Source: Sulfurovum sp. TSL1
Lineage (GTDB): Bacteria; Campylobacterota; Campylobacteria; Campylobacterales; Sulfurovaceae
NCBI RefSeq assembly: GCF_019972135.1
Contig: NZ_BPFI01000001.1
Coordinates: 1,223,106-1,287,105 of the forward strand
Length of the DNA stretch: 64,000 bases
Direction of reading: 5' to 3'
This document shows, piece by piece, positions 14,862-22,515 of the stretch (position 1 is its first letter; each line of letters opens with the position of its first letter). The notes below the pieces were generated by a model. That model had not been told where the DNA came from. It saw only the letters and a list, made by a program, of their open reading frames with translations, and searched no databases. The position numbers and the translations under genes were made by a program.

Positions 14862-15103
14862 TTTATATCCTTTAAATTAATAGAGTTTAAGTCTCTTCGA
14901 CTGTTCTAGAAGTCTGTTCGGATAGCGTAAACGATACTAAATGATCGCCAACATAGACATAAATGCCTACATTTCCCTACTGATCACTTCAAATAACGTC
15001 AAAATTATATCTAAAATATATTTAAAAAATACATTGTTTATCGGTACAAAAATATTCCATGTGATTTATTTAATTTAAACTTAAATAATATAATAAATTA
15101 TGA

Positions 15104-15156
15104 TAGAATAAAATAAGGGATGTAGGTAACAATGTTTGTAGATTTGTTGCTACCTA
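15104..15156 (+). promoter_or_regulatory. Promoter and leader hairpin of the exopolysaccharide operon
   Basis: In the 318-bp gap between atpE and the glycosyltransferase gene, a -10-like TAGAAT (about 15104-15109) precedes a leader of about 65 nt. The leader contains an imperfect hairpin: TAGGTA (15123-15128) pairs with TACCTA (15151-15156), and ACAA pairs with TTGT after a 3-nt bulge. The start codon follows AGGGAAAAAGGG. No GEMM aptamer is present. The rest of the gap is AT-rich leader sequence of atpE. Confidence 0.4.
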
Positions 15157-15179
15157 ATTAAAAGACAAGGGAAAAAGGG

Positions 15180-17225
15180 ATGGAGTTTATTGATTATTTT
15201 GCAGCCTATTGGCTGATCATAAAATATTTAGTATTATTTGCAGCGTTGATCATTTTGCTTAGTAGTATAGATGATTTTTTTATAGATTGTTACTATTGGA
15301 TCCGTCGTATTTGGCGAAAATTCACCGTTTACAGAAAACATAAACCTTTTAATGTGAATGAACTTTATAAAAATACAGAAAAACCGATTGCAATTATGGT
15401 ACCGGCATGGCATGAGAAAGGTGTCATAGCCGATATGGCTGCTTTGGCTGCTTCAAGTTTTGAATATTACAACTATCACATTTTTATCGGAACCTATCCG
15501 AATGATCCTGAAACCCAGCATGATGTTGATATTGTTGCGGAACATTATCGTAACATTCACAAGGTAGTCACACGAACTCCCGGGCCAACCAATAAATCTG
15601 ATTGTTTAAATAATATTATCGAACATATTTTTATATTTGAAAAGTCACACAATATCACATTTGATATTTTTGTTTTACACGATGCAGAGGATGTGATACA
15701 TCCTCTGGAATTAAAGCTTTTCAATCATCTTATCGCACATAACGACTTGATACAGATTCCTGTATTTCCATTTCAAAGAAAATGGTATGACCTCACAGCG
15801 GGTCACTACGAGGATGAATTTGCAGAAAATCACGGTAAAGATCTCATTGTCAGAGAGAGTATTTTGGGATTCGTTCCGAGTGCTGGCGTAGGGACTGCAT
15901 TAAGTCGAAAAGCGATAGAAAGACTTCGGGAAATTCATGAAGGTGAAGTTTTTTCTGTAGATACGCTCACAGAGGATTATAGCCTGGGATATGAACTGTT
16001 TAAAGAAAAAATGAAACTTATTTTTGTAAGAGTACCTGCAGAAATAGAATATAGAGCCAATAATCGGTATGGTCAGGCTGTTCCAGGGAAAAAACAGGAA
16101 CTGATCACCGTCAGAGAATTCTTCCCTTCCACATTTAGAAAAGCGGTGAATCAAAAATCAAGATGGCTTACGGGTATTGCACTTCAGGGATGGCAGAAGA
16201 TAGGCTGGACCGACAGCTTCAAAACAAACTATATACTCTTTAGGGATAGAAAGGCGATACTCACCAATTTAGCGAATATCTTAGCCTACATTTTGGTTGT
16301 CAATGTTCTTTTTATGACCTTATACTCAAAATTGACTACCGATACATGGTGGTTTCCGCCTATTGTGAAAGAAGACACATTGCTATGGACTTTACTTATC
16401 ATCAATGCTTTTTTCCTGCTCAACCGGGTTCTACAAAGAATGTACTTCACCTATAAGGTCTATGGAATAAAAGGTGCACTACTGAGTTTTCCAAGAATTG
16501 TATGGGGGAATATTATTAATTTCTTTGCAATGTTTAAAGCAATAAGACAATTTTTCAAAAACAAAAAAGAAGGAAGCATACTGACATGGGATAAAACAAC
16601 ACATGATTTTCCCATAAATATAAAATTCCATACAATGCTGGGTGATATTCTTATAGAAAAGAACTTGATCGATCAAACAACACTCAATGAAGCATTAGAA
16701 TTACAAAAGAGTGTCAATAAACCATTAGGACAACTGTTGGTTGAACAAGATATTTTAAGCGAAGAAGAATTGACAAAAGCAATGGCATTACAAGGGAATT
16801 TAGAATATATTGATATTACCATAGATCAAATAGATCGTTCCCTTATCAAAGAAATGGATAGATATGCTATGCTCGAACATGATATCCTGATCCTTAAAGA
16901 AAAAGAAGGGCTACAACCCATAGTCTCATCTCATCAATTGGTAGATGTGATCATTGATGATTATAAAAAAATCATATCAAAAGACACTAAACTATTTATC
17001 GCAAACGAAAGTACCATTCAGACGATTCAAAAAGAAATTTTGTTCCCGGACCTTACTGAAAATGAATACTTACATCTTCGAACTGTTGTGAAACAAAAAA
17101 TGATCCCTAGAAATATGGTATCCCAGATTTTAGCATATAGAGCAGAACACAATATCACTTTTATAGCAAGCTGTCAGCATTTTGGCTTTTTACCTGAAGA
17201 TCAATTAAAAAGGATCGGACTATGA
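15180..17225 (+). CDS. nfrB: NfrB-like membrane glycosyltransferase with C-terminal MshEN domain
   Basis: A 681-residue inner-membrane protein resembling NfrB, the E. coli phage N4 adsorption protein that makes the N4 glycan receptor. An N-terminal helix (about 11-31) is followed by a GT2 domain. Its motifs include AIMVPAWHE, DxD-type DAED (168-171), TEDY near residue 264 and QKSRW (325-329), as in processive synthases. Two or three further membrane helices lie at about 360-480. A MshEN module (487-540) has two 24-residue half-motifs separated by five residues, the arrangement that binds c-di-GMP in MshE and NfrB. The first residue of each half, normally Arg, is Met and Pro here. A further C-terminal domain follows. 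The stop overlaps the next gene (ATGA). Confidence 0.88.
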   Translation: MEFIDYFAAYWLIIKYLVLFAALIILLSSIDDFFIDCYYWIRRIWRKFTVYRKHKPFNVNELYKNTEKPIAIMVPAWHEKGVIADMAALAASSFEYYNYHIFIGTYPNDPETQHDVDIVAEHYRNIHKVVTRTPGPTNKSDCLNNIIEHIFIFEKSHNITFDIFVLHDAEDVIHPLELKLFNHLIAHNDLIQIPVFPFQRKWYDLTAGHYEDEFAENHGKDLIVRESILGFVPSAGVGTALSRKAIERLREIHEGEVFSVDTLTEDYSLGYELFKEKMKLIFVRVPAEIEYRANNRYGQAVPGKKQELITVREFFPSTFRKAVNQKSRWLTGIALQGWQKIGWTDSFKTNYILFRDRKAILTNLANILAYILVVNVLFMTLYSKLTTDTWWFPPIVKEDTLLWTLLIINAFFLLNRVLQRMYFTYKVYGIKGALLSFPRIVWGNIINFFAMFKAIRQFFKNKKEGSILTWDKTTHDFPINIKFHTMLGDILIEKNLIDQTTLNEALELQKSVNKPLGQLLVEQDILSEEELTKAMALQGNLEYIDITIDQIDRSLIKEMDRYAMLEHDILILKEKEGLQPIVSSHQLVDVIIDDYKKIISKDTKLFIANESTIQTIQKEILFPDLTENEYLHLRTVVKQKMIPRNMVSQILAYRAEHNITFIASCQHFGFLPEDQLKRIGL

Positions 17226-19648
17226 AACGATTACTCATTTTGCCATTGTACTGTGTAACACTTCTCAGTGCAAATATTGTGACTGATTCGGTCGATCATG
17301 TCACAAATGAATTAACCGAATATAGAATCTATCCCCGGTTGAAAAAAGCCGATCTCTACATCTCTCAGGGAAATACTACAGCAGCAAAAGAACTTCTCTT
17401 GAAGGTTTTGGAGATCGATCCTAAGAATACGCAAGCAGCCAACAGGGTCGTTGTACTCTGTATGCAAGATAAAGATTTTGAATGTGCCAATAAATATGTT
17501 GCACTTGTAGAACCCGCTGTGTATGCCAAATACTATAAAGGGTATATCTCTTTCCACTTAAAAGATTATGCCCAGGCACTAAAAACGGCTTCTTCTATAG
17601 AAGATACTTCTGTACTCAAAAAGAATGAACAGGCATTTAATGATCACATCCTATTGAGATCAGCGATATTCACTGACAATACGAAAGCGACCCAGACCTA
17701 TGTAGAGGAGATCCTGCATCCTAAATTCAACATTTCCTCTTGTCCCTCTGAATATTTGGATATCATCTCTTTGTTATTTGAACACAAGATGTTTGATACA
17801 GCAGTCAAAGAGATAGACCTTTACTTAGATCACTGTAAATCTCAAAAGATATCGGATGAAAAACTGGCTGTGTGGGCAGATCTTTTAAGAAAAGAAAACC
17901 ACTTTGATCAAGCCGAACGTATGATCGCCCATATAAATCAAACCAATCTGAAAAATGAACAGTTGCTGCTTCTGTTTTTACAAACTAATCATGAAGCAAA
18001 AGCCATTGAAACAATGGAAACCATCTATCAGGCCAGCCCTACTGAAGAAAATCAAGTTCGACTTGCCTATCTTTATGAAAAATCCGATAGGCAAGATAAA
18101 ATAACTTCTCTTTATTCCGATGTATACGAAGGTAAGAAAAACCCAAAAGATCTAAAAACACTGCTTTATCTCAAAAAGGACCCTCAACAGCAGTATCAAC
18201 TATTAGAGAAATACTACCCCTATGCAGGGCTTACGGATGAAGAAAAATTTAACTTTTCAGTCTCTCTGATCAAGTTTTACAAAGAAGAGAACAAAGTCAC
18301 TAAAATACTGCCTATAGTTGATGATCTCACACACCTTGAAAACTTGACAGACAAGCAAAAACTCTATTTGAGCCATCAGTATAGTGAAAATCATCAAGAC
18401 CAAAAAGCGATAGCACTTATGGAAGCACTCTATCAAGGTGACCCGCTTCCTGAGTATAAAGAGAGACTGGTATATCTACGCAATAAAAATACCATTCCTA
18501 AGAAATCAAAACCTAAAGTAGTACAAAAGAAACCACAGATCAAACCATTACCTACACGAGAAGATAAACTAAGGTCTGAAACACAGATGGCGTATGACCT
18601 CATCCATCAAAAAAAGTATGATGAAGCGGTCATCCACCTGAACAATGTACTCAAATATGAACCGAACAACCCGGTAAGATATGAACAGCTCGGACAAGCA
18701 TACTATGCGCAGGAAAAGTATGCACCTGCAGCAAAAGCTTTTGGCAAGGCAGCTTCTCTTGATCCACAATCAGGCTATTATGAATCATTGGGCTACTGCC
18801 ACATAAAGTTAAAAGACAAAAAAAGCGCTATAGAAAATTTTAAAAAAAGTATCGATATCGTGAAGCAGGAAGAGCCTGAAAACATTGACAAGCTCTATCA
18901 ATTAAAATACAGTGTAGCGGAATTGGACCGAAATTTCTTTGGTTATTTGACCTATGGTATGCGGCTTGACTCCTACAATAATACCGGCGGTATATCTCCC
19001 ATACTTTCTGCCAACTATGGCGGGTTTTCTGCATTAGAACTTCATTATAAACCAGAAATTTTCAAGGGCTATGCTACCGTCTATGCAAAAGTACTGGCTG
19101 GCGTACGAGACCAGAGTTTGGCAATCAGATCAGAGACATGGCAGCCATCCATAGGACTGCGTTTCCAACCATTAGAAGAGGAAAGACTCTACTTCTTCGT
19201 AGAAAAATTCTTCAAAGGTGGGGATGAGAGTCGTGACGATACCATGCTTAGAGCATCATGGGAACTCTTTGATGGCTATGACTTTTACCCTACTACAACA
19301 GAGTACCCGTGGAAACACCTGTATATGGACAGTGTCTACTACCTGGACAATGGCACCTACAGTCTCTATGCAAACTATGAACACGGATATGTATGGAAAA
19401 GCGGATACCAGGATGCCTGGATGCCGTATCTTTGTACTTCTGCAGGATACACTAACGATAACGGTCCAAAAGAGACGCTCAAAAGATTTGATGTAGGTGC
19501 AGGGATCTCCTATTTTTTCTGGCGCAATGAACGTGAATATAAATCCCATCAATATACAGGAAGAACCAGACTGGAATACCGTCATCAATATGCGGGTGAC
19601 CCTGAAGACGACCATGCACTAAGACTCATGCTTGAATTTTTCTTTTAA
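17222..19648 (+). CDS. nfrA: NfrA-like TPR/outer-membrane exopolysaccharide exporter
   Basis: An 808-residue exported protein with a signal peptide (cleavage near residue 18, LLSA). Residues about 35-560 are helical TPR-type repeats (for example KKADLYISQGNTTAAKELLL and NPVRYEQLGQAYYAQEKYAP). The last 240 residues change to a beta-rich, aromatic, barrel-like domain ending LRLMLEFFF, an outer-membrane C-terminus. This matches NfrA, whose TPR part and barrel export the N4 glycan. It overlaps the NfrB-like gene by 4 bp, so coupled translation is likely. PgaA, PelB and AlgE/K exporters have the same layout and are the alternatives. Confidence 0.85.
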   Translation: MKRLLILPLYCVTLLSANIVTDSVDHVTNELTEYRIYPRLKKADLYISQGNTTAAKELLLKVLEIDPKNTQAANRVVVLCMQDKDFECANKYVALVEPAVYAKYYKGYISFHLKDYAQALKTASSIEDTSVLKKNEQAFNDHILLRSAIFTDNTKATQTYVEEILHPKFNISSCPSEYLDIISLLFEHKMFDTAVKEIDLYLDHCKSQKISDEKLAVWADLLRKENHFDQAERMIAHINQTNLKNEQLLLLFLQTNHEAKAIETMETIYQASPTEENQVRLAYLYEKSDRQDKITSLYSDVYEGKKNPKDLKTLLYLKKDPQQQYQLLEKYYPYAGLTDEEKFNFSVSLIKFYKEENKVTKILPIVDDLTHLENLTDKQKLYLSHQYSENHQDQKAIALMEALYQGDPLPEYKERLVYLRNKNTIPKKSKPKVVQKKPQIKPLPTREDKLRSETQMAYDLIHQKKYDEAVIHLNNVLKYEPNNPVRYEQLGQAYYAQEKYAPAAKAFGKAASLDPQSGYYESLGYCHIKLKDKKSAIENFKKSIDIVKQEEPENIDKLYQLKYSVAELDRNFFGYLTYGMRLDSYNNTGGISPILSANYGGFSALELHYKPEIFKGYATVYAKVLAGVRDQSLAIRSETWQPSIGLRFQPLEEERLYFFVEKFFKGGDESRDDTMLRASWELFDGYDFYPTTTEYPWKHLYMDSVYYLDNGTYSLYANYEHGYVWKSGYQDAWMPYLCTSAGYTNDNGPKETLKRFDVGAGISYFFWRNEREYKSHQYTGRTRLEYRHQYAGDPEDDHALRLMLEFFF

Positions 19649-19705
19649 GGCATTCAATGCGCTAAAGAACCATTTGTGAAGTAATCATAAGAAAGGAGGC
19701 TAACA

Positions 19706-21448
19706 ATGAAAAGCGTGTTTAAATTTGGTACATTGCTGATGTATCTTCTGTTTTTCGTTTCTTGCGGAGGTGGCGGAGGCGGCAGTGGTGTTACAACACC
19801 ACCTGCTGATCCTGAGCCTGAACCTATCGTTCTTCCTTTACCAAGTAATAATCCTCCCCTGCAAAATGTCTTGATATTGTATGATAGTGCCGGTCCTTAT
19901 GGAGATCAGGGAAAAACCAATGCACTCTTGCTTGAAAATCTCCTGGGGCACTTTGATCTCAACATTACCTCCAAACCTGCTAATGCATATATAGCAAATG
20001 AAATGGTTGATGAGAATATTACGACTGTGTTCTATCTTGGTACCACCTTTGATGTATTGAGTTACTATCAAGGTGACCCTAATGGGCATAGCAGTTATAT
20101 GAATTTTTATCATGATATAGCAACACAAAATAAAATGGTTGTATGGATCAACTATAACCTTGACCTATTAGAAACAGAATGGGATGCAAACTCAAATAAT
20201 TGGGGAGTGAATACATTTGTAGATACAACTGGCTTTACCAACTCCGGCACAGATACAAATTATACTCGTGTATGGTATAAGGACACAGAACTCTATAAGG
20301 GTGTCATACCTTTTGCAACGCCCGATGCAAACACAACAGCTTGCTATGAAGAAAGCAACATTACCTATGCTTGTTCATTAGAACTTAACACCATCGGAAT
20401 CATTGATGATACTAAAGCAACTAGACTTGCTACAGCATCTTCAACATTTGATTTAACTAAATCTATAGAGCCCTATGTAACGAGGGGTGGAAATTTCTGG
20501 TTTGTTGGGGATCTCCCTTTTTCTTATATGTCGGAAGAGGACAGGTATCTTGCATTCGCAGACCTCCTGCATGATATGCTTGGTATAGACCACAATGAAT
20601 CACACAAGGCGATCATGCGGCTGGAAGATGTCAATGCAGAAACAAATCCTTCTGATCTAATAGCTATAACAGAGTATATGCAAAGCCAGAATATTCCTTT
20701 CAATGTTGCTACCATCCCACAATATGAGAATCCATTGGGTGAATATGGTTATCCAGTCGGTACCTCCATCCCAATTTCTGAATCAGATATCGGTACACTA
20801 CTACAAGCTTACTATAATGAAAGACTTATAGATATTGTACAGCATGGATTTAGCCATCAATATGACAGTGTCAAAAACCCATACAATGGGGTCACTGCGG
20901 ATGATTTTGAATTCATGATAGTAACAGATATTAACAATGATGGCAATTATACCTATGTAGGACCTTCAGAAGATGATAATGGAACCTGGGCGAAGAATAG
21001 AATACTGGAAGGAAAAGCGATTTTAAATGAAGTCAGTATACAGGCATTTGCCTGGGAGGCTCCACACTATATGGCAGGTCCGAGCCATTACCGGGCTATC
21101 CAAGAAGTCTATCCGATACAATATTCAAGACTGATCTACTATCCAGATGAGACCGATAAATCTAAATTTATCGGACAATTCTACCCGTATGTCATCCGAA
21201 AAGATACCTATGGATACTATATCATCCCTGAAAATATATACAATATTGTCAAAGATCCAAATCAGGGCTATAGAGCAATAAATGCTGAAGATATCATCCG
21301 TTTTGCACAGAAACTGAAAGTAGTACGTGATGGTGTTGCCAGTTTCTTTTACCATCCATATCTTGGTACAAGTGACCTTTCTGTTATTATTTCAGGACTA
21401 CAAAATGAAGGATATACTTTTGTAAGGGCTACATCATTAGTAGAATAG
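19706..21448 (+). CDS. DUF2334 polysaccharide deacetylase-like lipoprotein
   Basis: A 580-residue lipoprotein: signal sequence and lipobox FVSC, then a Gly/Ser and Pro/Glu-rich linker (about 20-45). The N-terminal half (50-300) has a Rossmann-like opening (NVLILYDSAGPYGDQGKTN). The C-terminal half is a DUF2334-type NodB-like barrel with the metal Asp in RLEDV (D308) and the HxxxH pair in HGFSH (380-384), followed by FAWEAPHY. By family it should remove acetyl groups from a sugar polymer in the periplasm or at the cell surface. It follows the NfrA-like gene by 57 bp with an AAAGGAGG ribosome site and precedes the GH26 gene by 5 bp. Confidence 0.85.
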   Translation: MKSVFKFGTLLMYLLFFVSCGGGGGGSGVTTPPADPEPEPIVLPLPSNNPPLQNVLILYDSAGPYGDQGKTNALLLENLLGHFDLNITSKPANAYIANEMVDENITTVFYLGTTFDVLSYYQGDPNGHSSYMNFYHDIATQNKMVVWINYNLDLLETEWDANSNNWGVNTFVDTTGFTNSGTDTNYTRVWYKDTELYKGVIPFATPDANTTACYEESNITYACSLELNTIGIIDDTKATRLATASSTFDLTKSIEPYVTRGGNFWFVGDLPFSYMSEEDRYLAFADLLHDMLGIDHNESHKAIMRLEDVNAETNPSDLIAITEYMQSQNIPFNVATIPQYENPLGEYGYPVGTSIPISESDIGTLLQAYYNERLIDIVQHGFSHQYDSVKNPYNGVTADDFEFMIVTDINNDGNYTYVGPSEDDNGTWAKNRILEGKAILNEVSIQAFAWEAPHYMAGPSHYRAIQEVYPIQYSRLIYYPDETDKSKFIGQFYPYVIRKDTYGYYIIPENIYNIVKDPNQGYRAINAEDIIRFAQKLKVVRDGVASFFYHPYLGTSDLSVIISGLQNEGYTFVRATSLVE

Positions 21449-21453
21449 ATCAA

Positions 21454-22515
21454 ATGTCTTTGTTCCAAATCATGAAACTACCAGCTACAGTTTTCTATCT
21501 GATAGTTATTAACACCATGGGATATAGCAGTGACCTATCAAAACATACAAAAGCGGAGTGGATCACTGAAGCACTCTCTTCGCTTGCCGATAGCCGATAC
21601 CCTCATGTCAAAGCAATCGCATGGTGGAACTCAAACTTTGATGATACAAGGCTGAGGATAGACTCTTCGCAAAAAAGCCTGAAGGCATATCAAAAAGGTA
21701 TTGACCTGCCAATATTCACATCTAAAGCTCTTATCAGTTACAAAAAGCTCTATCCGTCATCTAATGGTACTATCTACCATGCTGCATACCCAGACTTTGG
21801 TGGTACTGAAGATAATGTCACCTCCGTCAGTATCAAAACATTTGAAACGCTTGCACAAAAACAGCTTGTATGGGCATACTTCTCAAACAATTGGTTCGAT
21901 CAGATCAAATTTCCTCTATCCCAAGTGAATACCATCCATAAGAATGGGAAAATACCTTTTATCCGCTTGATGCCTAGAAGTGATTTTAGAAAAGGTGGTC
22001 CTGACCCGCTTTACACCATGCAAAAGATCATCGATGGAAAATTCGATAAAGCACTGAGTGAGTGGGCTTTGGATGCCAAAAAGACAGAAATACCTTTACT
22101 TGTGGAGTTTGGAACAGAGGTCAATGGAGATTGGTTTCCATGGAACGGAAGCTATAATGGAGGAGGGATCAAACATCTTTATGGTGACAAAAACAAAGCA
22201 GATGGGCCAGAACGTTTTCGTGATGCTTATAGACATATTATAGATCTCTTTCGTAGTCATGGAGTCGATAACATTACATGGTTTTTTCATGTAGATACAT
22301 TTGGAGAACCGAAAAAGAGCTGGAATAGCATCGAAAAATACTACCCTGGTGACAAATATATAGATTGGATAGGGATAAGTGTCTATGGACCACAACTAAA
22401 AGATGAGCCCTACCGCTCTTTTGTTGAAATAATGGATACCATATATCCTGCTGTTCTAAAGATATCGGATAAACCCATTGCGATCTTGGAATTAGGTATC
22501 ACAGAGTTAGAGTAA
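21454..22515 (+). CDS. GH26-like glycoside hydrolase with permuted domain order
   Basis: A 353-residue exported protein (hydrophobic segment about 9-24). Residues about 100-353 follow a GH26 (mannanase-type) domain from its usual beginning (YHAAYPDFGGTED, YFSNNW) through the acid/base region VEFGTEVNGDWFPW (E222) to the nucleophile strand ILELG (E346), and stop seven residues later. The segment that normally follows the nucleophile, a KAxWI helix then YPxVKAIxWxN and RIDSS, is instead at the N-terminus (33-80). So the domain appears circularly permuted, or is a slice of a former tandem protein. It probably trims the exopolysaccharide made by the upstream genes. Last gene of the operon. Confidence 0.82.
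   Translation: MSLFQIMKLPATVFYLIVINTMGYSSDLSKHTKAEWITEALSSLADSRYPHVKAIAWWNSNFDDTRLRIDSSQKSLKAYQKGIDLPIFTSKALISYKKLYPSSNGTIYHAAYPDFGGTEDNVTSVSIKTFETLAQKQLVWAYFSNNWFDQIKFPLSQVNTIHKNGKIPFIRLMPRSDFRKGGPDPLYTMQKIIDGKFDKALSEWALDAKKTEIPLLVEFGTEVNGDWFPWNGSYNGGGIKHLYGDKNKADGPERFRDAYRHIIDLFRSHGVDNITWFFHVDTFGEPKKSWNSIEKYYPGDKYIDWIGISVYGPQLKDEPYRSFVEIMDTIYPAVLKISDKPIAILELGITELE

Follow-up and report, generated by a model that had tools for sequence, protein, structure and literature searches.

In Escherichia coli, the nfrBA-ybcH genes make NGR, the cyclic di-GMP (c-di-GMP)-dependent receptor glycan of phage N4; the 2021 papers on this system settled neither the structure of the glycan nor what YbcH does (PMC8669469, PMC8669472). 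YbcH, which N4 infection does not require, has been proposed to act as a scaffold (PMC8669469). Here, we analyzed a 64,000-nucleotide stretch of the Sulfurovum sp. TSL1 genome (hereafter, the window), in which four + strand genes lie close together, with a 4-bp overlap between the first two, a 57-bp gap between the second and third, and a 5-bp gap between the third and fourth. We consider it reasonably probable, judging from sequence, that these genes form an Nfr-type, c-di-GMP-regulated, synthase-dependent exopolysaccharide system in which a circularly permuted glycoside hydrolase family 26 (GH26) protein occupies the slot of YbcH, and that YbcH is itself a glycosidase. A first-pass annotation of the window had described the four genes in the same interval (15180-22515), with the same overlap and gaps; all four open reading frames were confirmed, and profile searches placed each domain that it had named (GT2 with MshEN, tetratricopeptide repeats [TPRs] with NfrA_C, DUF2334, and GH26) above the Pfam cut-off.

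The first gene (15180..17225, + strand; 681 aa) encodes an NfrB-like synthase. The protein matched the Pfam GT2 profile Glyco_tranf_2_3 (4.2e-34) and retained the motifs of processive GT2 enzymes, with DxD, TED, and QxxRW present as HDAED, LTED, and QKSRW. Matches to MshEN (PF05157; 5.9e-05, 23.4 bits versus a cut-off of 23.1) and to the c-di-GMP-binding motif model NF053729 (54.7 bits versus a cut-off of 38) located the MshEN c-di-GMP-binding module at residues 487-622 (16638..17045, + strand). The synthase was 41% identical to NfrB of E. coli K-12 (locus L097), and D169, D267, and W330 of the latter correspond to D168, D266, and W329; the equivalents of L490 and G491 were also kept, and that of L537 was Met. 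D169, D267, W330, L490, and G491 were mutated in the study of E. coli NfrB (PMC8669469). Because the broader NfrB family model NF012033 was satisfied (650 bits versus a cut-off of 537) and the NfrB equivalog NF008411 was not (722 bits over the full length versus 1170), we refer to the protein as NfrB-type rather than as the E. coli equivalog. We also observed that NfrB in the nfr operons of a related genus, g11 (L082, L083, and L086), is ∼490 aa long and ends before the MshEN module, so this synthase would escape c-di-GMP control through MshEN.

The second gene (17222..19648, + strand; 808 aa) encodes TPRs and an NfrA_C domain at residues 638-794 (19133..19603, + strand; Pfam profile, 7.5e-20, 71.6 bits versus a cut-off of 25). 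It was 24.6% identical to E. coli NfrA and scored 56.5 against the NfrA equivalog PRK09782, the cut-off of which is 1223. We predict an nfrA-like product with a TPR periplasmic scaffold and an outer-membrane beta-barrel exporter. Membership of a poly-N-acetylglucosamine (PNAG) or cellulose system was rejected, with PgaA scoring 26 (cut-off 367) and BcsC 13 (cut-off 858). Cellulose, PNAG, and Pel models all fell far below their cut-offs or gave no score, so the pair remained of the NfrBA type, as the first-pass annotation had proposed.

The third gene (19706..21448, + strand; 580 aa) encodes a lipoprotein, with a lipobox (FVSC) at residues 17-20 and a CE4/NodB-like DUF2334 domain at residues 301-564 (20606..21397, + strand; Pfam profile, 1e-41). 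D308, H380, H384, E451, and H550 were invariant across 15 DUF2334 homologues. An Asp-His-His set, here D308, H380, and H384, together with H550 is the pattern expected of a CE4-like metal deacetylase, and the protein is therefore a putative CE4-like polysaccharide deacetylase with a predicted metal site.

The fourth gene (21454..22515, + strand; 353 aa) encodes an exported protein that matched the Glyco_hydro_26 profile (1.2e-12, 48.3 bits versus a cut-off of 20.2). The first-pass label of "GH26-like hydrolase" was thus correct as to family; however, it understated the protein, having missed a circular permutation. In a phmmer search against the PDB, the GH26 lichenase CtLic26A matched as two blocks in swapped order, query residues 124-351 aligning with 21-227 of the chain and query residues 32-83 with 231-280. 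By alignments, an AlphaFold2 (AF2) model, and a rotation test, the block relocated to the N terminus comprises alpha7-beta8-alpha8 (residues 28-92; 21535..21729, + strand). By AF2 and VIA-align, beta1-beta7 of the barrel occupy residues 105-353 (21766..22512, + strand), the chain ending 5 residues past beta7. The putative acid/base Glu222 (GTEVNGDWFPW; 22117..22119, + strand) aligned to HEANGDWYPW of CtLic26A, and the putative nucleophile Glu346 (AILELGITE; 22489..22491, + strand) to the Glu of IIIAEFASAE. Both residues were invariant in 51 permuted homologues, for which mean column identity was 52%. No PDB chain matching the fourth gene product in the permuted order was found.

Genomes of the same bacterial family also encode 19 close ordinary-order GH26 proteins (L007-L025) and a distant one (L026), in which the counterpart of the N-terminal block lies at the C terminus. 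Rotating the permuted protein raised its alignment score against all 19 close proteins, by 69 on average, and in 19/19 cases the rotated score exceeded those of all 50 controls in which the moved block had been shuffled. L026 (G096:C94), a GH26-like protein from the same genus, follows a stretch of repeats (ILWRK.., perhaps FG-GAP-like). The AF2 model, built on the 51 permuted sequences, was a complete eight-stranded barrel with a predicted local distance difference test score (pLDDT) of 92.5. Its first strand (residues 52-58) is beta8 and its last (342-348) carries Glu346; Glu222 follows beta4, and Glu346 lies in beta7. VIA-align placed residues 105-353 on residues 7-229 of CtLic26A (Z 22.6, root-mean-square deviation 1.9); the method cannot superpose across a permutation, so the structural evidence consists of the covered part and the strand order. 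The protein is GH26 by profile and by fold, and its strands run beta8, then beta1-beta7, instead of beta1 to beta8. We also rejected a truncated or misassembled GH26 gene, as 78 distinct permuted proteins had intact frames. Overall, the fourth gene encodes a circularly permuted GH26 glycosidase that keeps both catalytic Glu residues and is predicted to be hydrolytic.

We then compared the operon with those of relatives in a survey of 175 genomes of the same bacterial family, 18 of which encode NfrB. Three congeners (G090, G097, and G138) carry the identical four-gene order at the same chromosomal position with the same flanking genes, and in a metagenome-assembled genome (MAG) of a second genus (G053, MAG Epsilonproteobacteria SZUA-451) all four lie elsewhere on the genome with their order unchanged. 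The last two genes thus do recur in syntenic operons, contrary to an outcome that would have refuted the first-pass proposal. In G053, the GH26 gene is followed on the same strand by a gene for a CotH kinase-domain lipoprotein (L076 7001-8743, - strand). In the window, a 318-bp AT-rich gap (14862-15179) separates an atpE-like gene from nfrB, and no promoter signal above chance was found in it.

YbcH of E. coli belongs to DUF4434 (1.5e-69), and in sister nfr operons a DUF4434 gene directly follows nfrA. A profile search found no DUF4434 in the window genome. Among the 18 NfrB genomes, five encode the permuted GH26 and lack DUF4434 anywhere, and 12 encode DUF4434 and lack the permuted GH26; the remaining one (G162) has neither, its nfrB being cut by a contig end and its locus incomplete. 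DUF2334 accompanies NfrBA in all 18. The first-pass annotation had placed the last two genes outside the Nfr system as known in E. coli. This does not hold for DUF2334, and GH26 apparently replaces ybcH rather than being a pure addition, although the operon is indeed extended by both genes, which are conserved in the four relatives above. We conclude that the permuted GH26 probably replaced YbcH once and that both probably trim the polymer. Since a recognizable glycosidase fills the YbcH slot, we predict that YbcH, too, acts on this polymer as a glycosidase and not as a scaffold. DUF4434 proteins at 24-29% identity to YbcH share two invariant Glu residues, E144 and E245. The C-terminal domain of PgaB offers a precedent, having first been presumed to bind only and later been proven a hydrolase (PMC5933820).

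A 313-aa lipoprotein (P0001) is encoded next to DUF2334 in G162, G157, and G161 (one copy at L088 1147-2085, - strand), with homologues also in G149, G144, and G036. Its motifs WEIGNEVNG, GFGEVG, and FWWY look clan-A-like, and it had no family profile or PDB match; it is perhaps an undescribed hydrolase. A role as a further replacing hydrolase was unsupported, as P0001 coexists with DUF4434 in G157 and G161, and we leave it as a lead.

To trace the permuted enzyme, we scanned genome contigs for its relatives. Permuted order was found in 74 of the 80 best, mostly from Bacteroidota MAGs, with a few from Campylobacterota, Chlorobiota, Sedimenticola, Spirochaetaceae, and Phycisphaerae. These proteins are largely lipoproteins with unconserved neighbor genes, and their ordinary-order relatives lie at about 45-50% identity. 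In the GH26 tree, the five nfr-linked proteins formed one group (support 97/39; 95/91 including the long-branched L173) within a Bacteroidota-dominated clade, which is most simply read as a single uptake, by the operon, of an enzyme that was permuted beforehand and was then kept. Descent from the ordinary-order GH26 of its own bacterial family was rejected, as those 20 proteins formed a separate group (100/99). Its probable source is a pool of lone lipoprotein enzymes held mainly by Bacteroidota. The permutation may have arisen more than once; the tree requires three order changes, its starred branches force at least two, and the placement of long rows is unsure. Tandem ordinary-order GH26 genes nearly touch or overlap in Chlorobi (L165 8648-10261 and 10265-11377; L170 8645-10261 and 10242-11378), an arrangement from which duplication and end loss could yield a circular permutation.

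The E. coli glycan requires WecB (PMC8669472, PMC8669469), from which we reasoned that the polymer is probably built of N-acetylmannosamine (ManNAc). Genes for wecB-type epimerases adjoin nfr genes in three sister genomes (G035, G150, and G155), and the window genome has four, all outside the operon. Since each operon encodes a putative deacetylase, the chain may be deacetylated in part. A Chlorobi locus outside any nfr operon (L165 1920-20096), a putative polysaccharide utilization locus, encodes two ordinary-order GH26 proteins, DUF4434 (3.2e-62), SusC/SusD, and a DeoR regulator. Its other products are a GH2 protein with an exo-beta-D-glucosaminidase as its closest solved relative (2.7e-67) and an MFS transporter with matches to sugar permeases, NagP among them. 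A GlmS-like SIS protein is also encoded, as is a ROK kinase that resembles glucokinases and the kinases of ManNAc and N-acetylglucosamine. This association of GH26 and DUF4434 with amino-sugar genes points to an amino-sugar polymer with free amines, the uptake or breakdown of which the locus appears to serve. As a tentative extension, which we hold to be possible but somewhat doubtful, the GH26 subfamily that includes the widespread permuted clade would cleave deacetylated mannosamine-type beta-glycans, and YbcH/DUF4434 would constitute a new family of glycoside hydrolases with NGR as substrate; deacetylation by the host DUF2334 would set up the cleavage and could hide acetyl groups from N4-like deacetylase tailspikes.

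From the genes, domains, active-site residues, permutation, and co-occurrence found here, we infer every reaction of a possible pathway. Binding of c-di-GMP to MshEN would switch on NfrB, which would polymerize UDP-ManNAc or another UDP-N-acetylhexosamine and extrude the chain. In the periplasm, DUF2334 would strip some of the N-acetyl groups; GH26 would cut the partly deacetylated beta-linked chain or clear stalled polymer, and NfrA would export the chain. By analogy to E. coli, the surface glycan might be a phage receptor. The tailspikes of N4-like phages are glycan deacetylases (PMC8669472), and a host whose glycan is already deacetylated by its own enzyme might therefore suit such phages less rather than more.

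Several observations weigh against this reading of the operon. NfrB was missing from 49 of the 50 genomes examined, nearly all of which hold a permuted GH26, which makes the association of the enzyme with the polymer a recent and perhaps incidental one; for the same reason, and given the unconserved neighbors, we rejected the permuted GH26 as a general nfr marker. On the NfrB tree, the exchange with DUF4434 is a single event (97/100), which makes the exclusion suggestive rather than a set of many independent observations, and some genus g11 genomes with nfr genes also carry ordinary-order GH26 genes at unlinked sites. Among solved GH26 proteins, the closest is a lichenase (a beta-1,3-1,4-glucanase), and the subfamily has Thr/Val before the acid/base Glu, where CtLic26A has His; specificity is thus unreadable from the active site and the substrate only inferred. 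The deacetylase role of DUF2334 is putative, and its AF2 model, made from two sequences, was poor (pLDDT 33). The lone lipoproteins in NfrB-less genomes and the lichenase fold match would both suit an unrelated secreted glucanase or mannanase that scavenges and is merely co-transcribed, leaving DUF2334 alone to modify a polymer in need of no hydrolase. We regard this as unlikely; the gene lies 5 bp downstream of its neighbor, the fourth position is kept in five genomes at two genomic sites and in two genera, DUF4434 is missing exactly where GH26 is present, and the single tree group of the nfr-linked enzymes fits one retained acquisition.

Another alternative is that GH26 and DUF4434 bind the glycan without catalysis and, as scaffolds, pass the chain on to NfrA, as has been proposed for YbcH (PMC8669469); this would agree with the dispensability of YbcH for infection. 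It seems improbable to us given the invariance of Glu222 and Glu346 in the permuted homologues, the conservation of two Glu residues in distant DUF4434 proteins, and the history of PgaB. Tandem GH26 genes such as the L165 pair also provide a conceivable source for an artefact, in which a truncated gene was fused to the remnant of an upstream copy and the enzyme is not in use. Such an origin is refuted, with next to no probability left to it, by the permuted order of most best relatives across several phyla, their intact frames, their sequence conservation with invariant catalytic residues, and the complete modeled barrel. Less easily set aside, but still on the doubtful side, is a polymer of another beta-glycan, with wecB genes serving other surface glycans; no wecB lies within the window operon, and the four epimerase genes elsewhere could have such roles. 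However, three sister genomes have wecB next to their nfr genes, the presence of a putative deacetylase in all of the operons means that the chain should carry N-acetyl (or O-acetyl) groups, and NGR depends on WecB (PMC8669472). We therefore favor a trimming GH26 in the YbcH slot of an Nfr-type operon.

The Nfr pathway itself is known; new here are a structurally unusual component and the prediction for YbcH. Replacement of YbcH by a recognizable glycosidase yields a direct prediction for E. coli, namely that YbcH is a hydrolase with E144 and E245 as catalytic residues. A natural GH26 permutation with ordinary-order relatives is useful for studying barrel rewiring, and GH26 and DUF4434 beside an exo-glucosaminidase are candidate enzymes for degrading such biofilm polymers. 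Literature searches for circular permutation with GH26 or mannanase, for DUF4434, and for DUF2334 with exopolysaccharide returned nothing relevant.

Like E. coli nfrBA-ybcH, the window operon has overlapping nfrB and nfrA genes, a GT2 and MshEN synthase with catalytic and c-di-GMP residues kept, a TPR and NfrA_C barrel, and a periplasmic third component; unlike it, the operon lacks ybcH and carries DUF2334 and the permuted GH26, and its NfrA is shorter and about 25% identical. Sister Campylobacterota operons (G099, G107, G035, and genus g11) share NfrB, NfrA, and DUF2334 but have DUF4434 after nfrA, some with wecB, and g11 NfrB lacks MshEN. PgaABCD (PNAG) and Pel similarly combine a synthase, a TPR-barrel porin, and a periplasmic deacetylase and glycosidase (PMC5933820), although the synthase, deacetylase, and hydrolase families differ, PgaB having CE4 and GH153 domains. 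In Listeria, Pss is a beta-1,4-ManNAc polymer with the deacetylase PssB and the hydrolase PssZ (PMC6307706, PMC4817252, PMC5933820). Like the polymer proposed here, Pss depends on c-di-GMP, is ManNAc-based, and has both a deacetylase and a hydrolase, whereas Listeria has no outer membrane and no NfrA, and PssZ is not GH26. The fourth gene product shares the barrel, the two catalytic Glu residues, and the VIA-align match with CtLic26A and mannanases, and differs in its permutation and in lacking His before the acid/base Glu. In GH70 glucansucrases, too, a glycosidase barrel is naturally permuted in comparison with GH13, but these enzymes belong to another clan, with a different reaction and breakpoint.

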